This document shows positions 60,341 to 62,091 of a DNA stretch of 64,000 nt, piece after piece. This stretch comes from Desulfovibrionales bacterium (GTDB lineage: Bacteria > Desulfobacterota > Desulfovibrionia > Desulfovibrionales > Desulfomicrobiaceae). Made by a program: the position numbers and the translations under genes. Within the stretch, counting starts at the first letter, position 1. Each line of letters opens with the position of its first letter. The notes under the pieces were generated by a model. It was not told the DNA's origin, did no database searches, and saw only the letters and a program-made list of their open reading frames with translations. The DNA lies in assembly GCA_012729655.1 (NCBI GenBank), contig JAAYCS010000036.1, positions 1 through 64,000 on the forward strand, read 5' to 3'.

Positions 60341-61030
60341 ATGGACTATAAACACGTCGTGGTTTTGACCGGCGCTGGGATCAGCGCCGAGAGCGGCATC
60401 CCCACATTTCGGGGTGCCGGTGGCTTGTGGTTCAAGCACCGCATCGAGGACGTGGCCACAACAGAAGCCTTTGCCCGGAGTCCGGCACTGGTCCTGGAGT
60501 TCTACAACCAGCGCCGGGCCCAACTGGAAATCGCGCAGCCCAACAAGGCCCATACGGCCCTTGCCCGTCTGGAGCAAGGGTACCGGGTCACAATAGTCAC
60601 CCAGAACGTGGACAATCTGCATGAACGGGCCGGCTCAACCAATGTCCTGCACCTGCACGGCCAGCTGTGCCAGGCACGCAGCTCCGCGGACCCGGACCTA
60701 GTCGTGGACATCGGATACAGACCCATCCGCATGGGTGACACCTGTCCCCTGGGCAGCCAGCTCCGGCCCGACGTGGTTTGGTTCGGGGAACCCGTACCCA
60801 TGATGCACAAAGCGAGCGCAGTGGTGGCCACGGCAGACACGCTCCTGATCATCGGAACGTCCCTGGCCGTATATCCCGCGGCATCCCTGGCCCATGAGGC
60901 CCCGGCACGGGCGGTGGTATTCGTCATTGATCCCGAGGCCGAACCGGGGTGGATCCCGGGAGCCAGGGTGTTCCGTGAAAAGGCCACCCGGCGCGTGCCG
61001 CTTCTCGTGGATGAACTGCTTGGAATGTGA
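60341..61030 (+). CDS. NAD-dependent protein deacylase (sirtuin)
   Basis: 229 residues. The NAD-binding GAGISAESGIPTFRG (residues 11-25), TQNVDNLHERAG (88-99), the catalytic His106 in LHLHGQL, PDVVWFGE and GTSLAVYPAASL are intact, so it should remove acetyl, succinyl or similar groups from lysines. The zinc ribbon is reduced: only Cys110 and Cys135 remain of the usual four cysteines. The ATG at 60341 has AGGA seven bases upstream. The candidate selenoprotein gene starts 12 bases after its stop. Confidence 0.92.
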   Translation: MDYKHVVVLTGAGISAESGIPTFRGAGGLWFKHRIEDVATTEAFARSPALVLEFYNQRRAQLEIAQPNKAHTALARLEQGYRVTIVTQNVDNLHERAGSTNVLHLHGQLCQARSSADPDLVVDIGYRPIRMGDTCPLGSQLRPDVVWFGEPVPMMHKASAVVATADTLLIIGTSLAVYPAASLAHEAPARAVVFVIDPEAEPGWIPGARVFREKATRRVPLLVDELLGM

Positions 61031-61042
61031 GGAGGGAGAAAT

Positions 61043-61186
61043 ATGGAAGATCTGTTGTATGTCTTGCTTATCGTCGGCGTATGGATCGTGCTGGTCAAGG
61101 TCGTATTCCCGAAAATCGGGATTCATGGCTGAGGCCCAGCCACCAAGGGCTGCAGTTGGCAGCCCAGAGACAAGGACAAATCATGA
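61043..61186 (+). CDS. Tiny membrane protein; possible selenoprotein with in-frame UGA
   Basis: The sirtuin stop is followed by GGAGGGAG and an ATG. Up to the TGA at 61130-61132 the product is 29 residues: a charged start, one hydrophobic helix (LLYVLLIVGVWIVLVKVVF) and PKIGIHG. If the UGA is read as selenocysteine the frame continues as G-P-A-T-K-G-C-S-W-Q-P-R-D-K-D-K-S to a second TGA (61184-61186), a 47-residue protein with Sec30 and Cys37 on one side of the membrane. A perfect hairpin lies at bacterial-SECIS distance (61147-61165). If not read through, it is a 29-residue one-helix protein ending at 61132. The strong ribosome site and tight spacing make translation likely either way. Confidence 0.6.
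61147..61165 (+). promoter_or_regulatory. Candidate bacterial SECIS hairpin
   Basis: GGGCTGC and GCAGCCC form a perfect 7-bp stem with the loop AGTTG. The loop begins 21 bases after the UGA, and its second base is G. Both agree with what is known of bacterial SECIS elements (loop about 16-37 bases from the UGA, a G among the first two loop bases). No T-tract follows, so it is not an ordinary terminator. Confidence 0.5.
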
Positions 61187-61588
61187 CTCACGCAGTTCGG
61201 TCATGATGAGACCCACAAACCTGTCCGACCGGCTTTGATATTCCCAGCCAAGTTGGACGGAGCACTGGCGGCAGAAGGCAAAACGCCATGCATATCCCGC
61301 AAACCAAGTGAAGGCGAGGGTGGAATCCCCACCGAAGCCGCACCCCCCGGCTTGGGCAAAGCAACCGACCTCGAAAAGAATGCCCATAGGGTTGAAGAGG
61401 GCATGGATGTGTCTACCGCCCACCTCGATCCGGTCCCTGGGGCTGGCGATGGGCTGGCCGCAGGCCCGACAGAGCAGCATTCTCTGGCCGGATGACTCCA
61501 AGTCGGCCCTGCTCTCGTCAACCAGAAAAGGATCATGGCCGGGACATTCCAGCCGCCGGCAGCTGATGAACAAGTGGCCCTGAAACAT
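61181..61588 (-). CDS. Bacterial CULT-domain (cereblon-like) protein
   Basis: 135 residues. From Cys40 on it follows the CULT domain, the thalidomide-binding part of cereblon: zinc ligands in LCRAC (Cys40, Cys43) and FCRQC (Cys106, Cys109), FNPMG (66-69) and the aromatic cage Trp95, Trp101 and Trp115 in TWFAGYAW and LGWEYQ. It lacks the Lon-like domain of eukaryotic cereblon, as do the known stand-alone bacterial proteins. The native ligand and role are unknown. The first 35 residues are less conserved, and the ATG at 61588 has only a weak ribosome site. Its 3' end overlaps the candidate selenoprotein frame. Confidence 0.85.
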   Translation of the reverse strand: MFQGHLFISCRRLECPGHDPFLVDESRADLESSGQRMLLCRACGQPIASPRDRIEVGGRHIHALFNPMGILFEVGCFAQAGGCGFGGDSTLAFTWFAGYAWRFAFCRQCSVQLGWEYQSRSDRFVGLIMTELRES

Positions 61589-61632: not shown

Positions 61633-62091
61633 ATGCACATGCTTGCCATTCGTATCGCCCAGGCCGGACTTGTCGCCCGCATCTGGGAATCCTTGAGACA
61701 GGAGGTCGGCACTGAGCGGGCCAGTGCGATCCTGGTCGCAGCCATCGCAGCCGACGCCCGATGTGCGGGGGAAACGTTTGCCCGCACGGCCCCGGGCCGA
61801 GCGAGCCTGCACCATTTTGCCACGGTCCTGGACCGCTGGCAGGACGGAGGTGCGCTGAATATAAAAGACATCCGCCTGACTGAGACGGCCCTGCATTTCG
61901 CCGTGACGGCCTGCGGCTATGCCCAATCCTATGCTGACATGGGCCTGGCACCGGAACTTGGGTCCATCCTGTCCTGTTCCCGGGATGAACCCTTTGCCCA
62001 GGGCTACAGCCCAAACCTGTCCATGTACCGCTCCAGGACCATCATGCAGGGGGCGCCCGCATGCCTTTTTACCTTCACATGGGCTTCATAA
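61633..62091 (+). CDS. L-2-amino-thiazoline-4-carboxylate hydrolase family protein
   Basis: 152 residues. The C-terminal half has VTACGYAQSYADMGLAPELGSILSCSRDEPFAQGYSPNLSMYRSRTIMQG, of which the C-x-R-D and F-x-x-G-Y-x-P-x-L features are those I associate with the ATC hydrolase family (cysteine synthesis from thiazolines in Pseudomonas; other roles elsewhere). There is no signal peptide or helix. The start is ATG 61633 or 61639. It is divergent from the CULT gene with a 44-base gap. Confidence 0.65.
   Translation: MHMLAIRIAQAGLVARIWESLRQEVGTERASAILVAAIAADARCAGETFARTAPGRASLHHFATVLDRWQDGGALNIKDIRLTETALHFAVTACGYAQSYADMGLAPELGSILSCSRDEPFAQGYSPNLSMYRSRTIMQGAPACLFTFTWAS

Follow-up and report, generated by a model that had tools for sequence, protein, structure and literature searches.

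A predicted family of small single-pass membrane selenoproteins in bacteria

Small selenoproteins and a candidate gene in a Desulfovibrionales contig

SELENOK and SELENOS (VIMP) of eukaryotes are small single-pass membrane proteins that carry selenocysteine (Sec, U) near the C-terminus, in a cytosol-facing tail; their SECIS elements lie in the 3'-UTR, they have longer tails or coiled coils, and in SELENOS a Cys-Sec selenenylsulfide is reduced by thioredoxin. The family that we describe here resembles them by analogy only, and no homology is claimed: the new protein has about 47 residues, its SECIS is within the coding region, and its Cys comes after Sec.

Among bacterial selenoproteins, KCU-star (DUF466, NF033934, Cj0916c of Campylobacter) is also small, and its function is given as unknown in the 2026 catalogue of 119 prokaryotic selenoprotein families; it has a CU motif (PMC13188914), whereas the new family has a transmembrane helix followed by PKxGxxxU and no NCBIfam match to KCU-star. 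Bacterial Trx, Prx-like and Trx-like selenoproteins share with it a Sec with a nearby Cys and, for part of the new family, a thioredoxin-system neighbourhood. However, the new family spaces these residues as U-x4-C or U-x6-C, and neither Pfam nor AlphaFold gave a thioredoxin-like fold with UxxC or CxxU. DG, DW and DF (deep-Sep 2025; from Desulfobacterota) and GOS_A-C are likewise selenoproteins predicted from sequence, with no function assigned; of these, DG, DW, DF, GOS_B and GOS_C have NCBIfam models in the catalogue, none of which matches the new family, and GOS_A has no model there. More generally, no model of Pfam or NCBIfam 20.0 (June 2026) scored above its cut-off for any member scanned, the PDB held no relative of our family profile A3, no such protein is listed for Geobacter or Desulfovibrio in the selenoproteome tables of 2006, and in the open-licence literature the 2026 catalogue's table of families has no entry with this architecture (PMC13188914).

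Candidates in the deep-Sep search had to have Cys homologues; its authors point out that the method may discard selenoproteins without them, and that every known selenoprotein now appears to have a Cys homologue. Applied to Desulfomicrobium orale (2,783,374 bp), the method returned six known and no new selenoproteins (PMC12013277). Existing searches would miss the present family because its Cys form almost never occurs.

The gene lies at positions 61043-61186 of the forward strand of the window, by which we mean the whole 64,000-nucleotide stretch of contig JAAYCS010000036.1 that was analysed. A sequence-only reading had proposed here a new 47-residue membrane selenoprotein behind a sirtuin gene, and each element that it described was found in place. 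The sirtuin, a Sir2-family deacylase (60341-61030, forward strand; PF02146, 3e-42), ends with its stop codon at 61028-61030, the last base of which is shared with a Shine-Dalgarno sequence AGGAGG (61030-61035), and the selenoprotein ATG follows at 61043, 12 bases beyond that stop. The 47-codon frame runs through a TGA at 61130-61132 (codon 30) to a second TGA at 61184-61186 and translates as MEDLLYVLLIVGVWIVLVKVVFPKIGIHG-U-GPATKGCSWQPRDKDKS*, with Cys37 (61151-61153) seven residues after the predicted Sec. The Cys37 codon is itself within the 5' strand of a hairpin at 61147-61165, whose 7-bp stem GGGCTGC/GCAGCCC encloses the loop AGTTG (61154-61158); the loop lies 21 nt after the UGA and has G as its second base, just as had been claimed.

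Coding signal and SECIS hairpin after the UGA codon

If the UGA is sense, coding conservation should continue beyond it. Eleven congeneric sequences were compared pairwise, so that the resulting counts are not independent, although the contrast is large. Substitutions at codon positions 1/2/3 number 460/64/710 in the stretch upstream of the UGA, 184/96/277 between the UGA and the terminal stop, and 680/590/605 beyond that stop. Codons that differ are synonymous in 132 cases against 230 non-synonymous downstream of the UGA, and in 42 against 845 beyond the terminal stop. Lack of conservation downstream of the UGA, which would have told against a selenoprotein, was thus not what we saw: among homologues, conservation runs on as GPxxxSCSWQP or MSxSC.

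Bacterial SECIS elements have been summarised as a loop of 3-9 nt with G among its first two bases, on a stem of at least 4 bp, 16-37 nt from the UGA and with a minimum free energy of -7.5 kcal/mol or lower (PMC13188914). Such an element was present in 179 of 206 unique members, compared with 30.4 +/- 4.7 when the downstream codons were shuffled (maximum 40 in 20 rounds), and the window gene has one with a 7-bp stem at 21 nt and -17.8 kcal/mol. A simpler stem score gave 10.57 against 4.73 +/- 0.23. Furthermore, gapless pairing anchored at the UGA peaks at one register, reaching 60% in members with Cys at U+5 (34-47% when slid) and 80% in those with Cys at U+7 (16-61% when slid). Stem sequences vary widely, so it is the structure that has been kept and not the sequence. 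The hairpin after the UGA is a bacterial SECIS.

One mark of a bacterial selenoprotein gene is a UGA that its homologues retain, flanked before and after by sequence conserved as protein, and this is what we find here; another sign, a Cys homologue aligned at Sec, comes from one sequence only. Judged on this comparative evidence, decoding of codon 30 as selenocysteine seems to us very nearly certain.

Distribution, variants and association with SelB

When 101 related genomes were searched, about 45 homologues came up (E < 0.003), nearly all of them aligned across exactly one TGA. Their alignment (A1) has the pattern MxxLLxLLLxVxxWxVLVKVVFPKLGIxG-U-GPxxxSCSWQPKDK; the position of the UGA and the following Cys are invariant in all 30 rows, and the terminal stop may be TGA, TAA or TAG. 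Profile matches were found in 137 of 348 genomes of the class and 167 of 395 genomes of the phylum, and about 70 of these loci, with the weakest matches not all among them, were inspected by sequence; nearly all of those inspected are members. Within the phylum a second subtype, PKLGVPT-U-MSxSCEIGDR, was recognised. In Acidobacteriota, about 41 of 174 genomes hold a member with TGA, and the profile search of these 174 returned no Cys form.

To look further afield, one genome of each GTDB species was scanned with a degenerate DNA pattern that describes the second subtype, and at least 117 contigs matched; among the 117 listed, translation shows about 114 to be members (79 in the first 80 and 35 in the other 37). 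By their record labels, the matches listed come from Desulfobacterota lineages, Acidobacteria, Planctomycetes (including Gemmatales and Ca. Kuenenia), KSB1, KSB3, Armatimonadetes, Spirochaetes, Verrucomicrobia, a 'Cyanobacteria' MAG, Chloroflexi, Zixibacteria, Krumholzibacteriota, Margulisbacteria and Ca. Solincola, and cover more than 10 further phyla, where any single label carries little weight because most records are MAGs. One member (L017) is in a genome that consists of a single contig (G011), and no plasmid copy of the family was found.

The sequence-only reading had called for a search of related genomes for TGA or Cys at the Sec position. Among members inspected, about 230 have TGA there and one has TGC, and no homologue inspected has TAA or TAG. 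The sole Cys homologue seen (G124, L068) reads PKLGIKNCG at the Sec position (PKLGIKNCGSLPGSC; PKLGIKNCGSLPGSCKW). As the profiles write U as C, Cys forms would outscore TGA forms, so that Cys forms are simply rare; entries without a stop in the class and phylum searches are mostly alignments that end before the TGA, and not Cys forms. The DNA pattern, which requires TGA, carries no information on this point.

The window's genome, a draft that is 88.6% complete, encodes tRNA-Sec (83 bits), SelB (367 bits) and SelA (628 bits). The expectation that Sec machinery would be present was thus borne out for these three; selD gave only a sub-threshold match and is either missing from the draft or not recognised. 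The family is tied to SelB. Among 36 member genomes of many phyla from the pattern scan, 32 encode a SelB that passes the cut-off, and in another the SelB is truncated at a contig end; SelB is absent from the genome of the single chance match to the pattern (L190, Bacteroidales), which also lacks the membrane helix. In Acidobacteriota, members occur in 39 of 120 SelB-positive and 2 of 54 SelB-negative genomes (Fisher p = 1.2e-5), the latter two being small assemblies. The same co-occurrence test has little power in Desulfobacterota because nearly all genomes there carry selB; no SelB match was obtained in 5 of 167 member genomes. Taken together, the comparative data indicate that the gene almost certainly belongs to a previously unlisted family of widespread bacterial selenoproteins, in agreement with what had been proposed for the window; its range goes well beyond what that reading could show.

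Several variants stand somewhat apart. Two tandem selenoprotein genes occur in three genomes (G025, G083 and G230; L083, L084 and L085), and the second copy (MWDNILFLL...PKFGMRGUMPRPPDVWETPDK) is conserved and has no Cys after Sec. In one genus of the class (L069-L075) the sequences are divergent (PKMGISPUQIGK...GGGCGG), with a Cys far downstream in a glycine-rich tail, and an FmdB zinc-ribbon gene follows several of them. Matches at G509:C444 (L127) and in G856, G924, G817 and G860 were rejected as non-members; G860:C98:5576-5656 and G817:C141:663-743 belong to 388-aa open frames that lack the TGA and begin with a segment resembling the family helix.

Protein architecture, neighbouring genes and proposed function

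AlphaFold2 places a helix at residues 2-24 (61046-61114), with a mean pLDDT above 90 over residues 1-20, and models the tail with low confidence. The hydrophobic composition of this segment and its conservation in alignments A1-A3 agree with a single transmembrane helix. Mean net charge is -0.6 on the N-terminal side of the helix and +2.6 in the tail and, applying the positive-inside rule to this difference, we infer that Sec and Cys are on the cytoplasmic side. The product is thus probably a single-pass protein, N-out/C-in, with a short, basic and probably disordered cytoplasmic tail. Of 206 members, 149 have the Cys at U+5 and 31 have it at U+7; in a few it comes 12-19 residues after Sec, and six have none in the stretch read.

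Clustering of the nearest genes and Pfam counts of neighbours revealed no common partner. Gene-by-gene lists missed FmdB because its small ORFs are dropped in greedy gene calls. When all six-frame ORFs around 169 member loci were searched with profiles, an FmdB-type zinc ribbon was found near 32 loci, on the same strand in 31, compared with three matches beyond 3 kb; thioredoxin is near 19 loci (one match beyond 3 kb) and CcdA near six (none beyond 3 kb). Gene orders vary (FmdB-SEL, SEL-FmdB, Trx-SEL, SEL-Trx, Trx-FmdB-SEL, SEL-FmdB-Trx, FmdB-SEL-Trx and SEL-Trx-FmdB, SEL being the selenoprotein gene), and the shuffled orders are seen in Desulfobacterota, Acidobacteriota, Chloroflexi, KSB1, KSB3, Armatimonadota and others. 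About 70% of the 169 loci have no FmdB, Trx or CcdA nearby; other immediate neighbours, some of them identified from sequence by eye, include fabI, purC, gltX, rpsF, histidine kinases and ECF sigma factors, and a few loci have sulfur-related genes (TauE with an SQR-like oxidoreductase at L247, a YgaP-like TM protein, DUF302, ArsR). At five Desulfobacteria-type loci (L154, L160, L183, L194 and L202), the called start of an ECF sigma factor gene overlaps the end of the selenoprotein gene by about 38 bases.

In a Pirellulales MAG (L155:1145-1800), a member shares one stop-free frame with a thioredoxin domain (PF00085, 2.7e-32), possibly a TM-Sec-thioredoxin fusion, as read from this single MAG sequence. 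Two other long frames were rejected as fusions: the in-frame run into the SQR-like oxidoreductase at L247, where a Shine-Dalgarno-like GGGAGA precedes the start, and an AraC/DJ-1-like frame at L241, where a terminator-like repeat separates the genes.

From these associations a mechanism can be proposed. Once the UGA has been decoded with the help of SelB, tRNA-Sec and the hairpin just downstream, the N-terminal helix would anchor the protein and hold Sec just beyond the membrane, at the cytoplasmic face, with Cys 5-7 residues on. At the membrane the selenol would react with an oxidised thiol or some other oxidant, candidate substrates being peroxides, persulfides and protein disulfides; oxidised Sec would then form a selenenylsulfide with the following Cys (Sec30-Cys37), which thioredoxin may re-reduce, and the cysteine-rich FmdB-type zinc ribbon may be a partner or a target. 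We consider it fairly probable that the selenoprotein is, as a whole, a Sec/Cys redox centre that is anchored in the membrane, faces the cytoplasm and is served by thioredoxin; a thioredoxin-linked redox role, considered for itself, is one that the gene neighbourhoods make reasonably likely.

Other explanations can be weighed against this. One, which the sequence-only reading had kept as its alternative, is that the UGA is an ordinary stop and that the similarity downstream is incidental or regulatory. A 29-residue transmembrane peptide would be viable, but homologues inspected have TGA at that position, never TAA or TAG; the codon-position bias and synonymous changes downstream are gone after the terminal stop; and the SECIS statistics, the SelB association and a Cys homologue that reads through all argue against termination, which we therefore regard as scarcely credible.

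The remaining explanations accept the selenoprotein and assign it another role. At the membrane, Sec and Cys could serve to bind or detect persulfide, or a metal or metalloid such as mercury, arsenic or copper, a role suggested by loci that adjoin ArsR, RND/HlyD efflux, YgaP-like TM, DUF302 or rhodanese genes, or TauE with the SQR-like oxidoreductase, and in line with a 2026 review that proposes metal roles for several selenoproteins (PMC13188914). Such neighbours are nevertheless rarer than FmdB and thioredoxin (8 ArsR, 7 YgaP-TM and 5 DUF302 loci), and both the CcdA neighbours and the fusion to thioredoxin speak for thiol-disulfide chemistry, so we hold metal or persulfide binding to be unlikely. 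It is also conceivable, and in our view quite improbable, that the protein is a small structural or regulatory subunit whose Sec acts as redox sensor, for instance for an ECF sigma factor or within an electron-transport complex: ECF sigma factor genes directly follow it in about nine loci, mostly of Desulfobacteria type, and at others it has genes for cytochrome c7, a histidine kinase or cytochrome b beside it, yet no neighbour of this kind returns from phylum to phylum in the way that FmdB and thioredoxin do.

Returning to the thioredoxin-served redox centre, we lean towards seeing in the family an overlooked one, among the most widespread of bacterial selenoproteins: a minimal selenol relay, tethered to the membrane, whose partners are thioredoxin and the FmdB zinc ribbon, and a bacterial counterpart of the single-pass eukaryotic selenoproteins. 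Its near-exclusive use of Sec and its length of only about 45-65 residues would explain why it was overlooked. Selenoprotein discovery leans on Cys homologues, and a Sec-dominated family across about a dozen phyla marks a blind spot; if the reading is right, the rule of thumb by which a selenoprotein is accompanied by many Cys homologues is largely broken, and further Sec-dominated families are likely still unseen. A tiny selenoprotein would be added to many gene lists, the unexplained FmdB zinc ribbon would gain a candidate partner, and the family would offer a minimal case for asking why sulfur cannot replace selenium.

In the window's genus the gene lies between the sirtuin and a Yippee-like gene instead of beside thioredoxin or FmdB. 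The sirtuin had been correctly identified, yet it is not the family's usual neighbour, and we do not count it as part of the system; it also matches NF040867 (CobB) at 1.3e-61 and 208 bits, under that model's cut-off of 320 bits, and its set of zinc-ligand cysteines is apparently reduced. On the opposite strand, a convergent 135-aa ORF (61181-61588) has a stop that overlaps the distal stop of the selenoprotein gene (TCATGA). It matches Yippee-Mis18 weakly (E 1.8e-4, under the gathering threshold) and has some resemblance to a cereblon CULT domain, and a similar C-terminus is encoded downstream of the gene in several congeners (L003, L005, L007). Beyond it, on the forward strand at 61633-62091, is a gene of the L-2-amino-thiazoline-4-carboxylic acid hydrolase family (PF14196, 4.5e-24).
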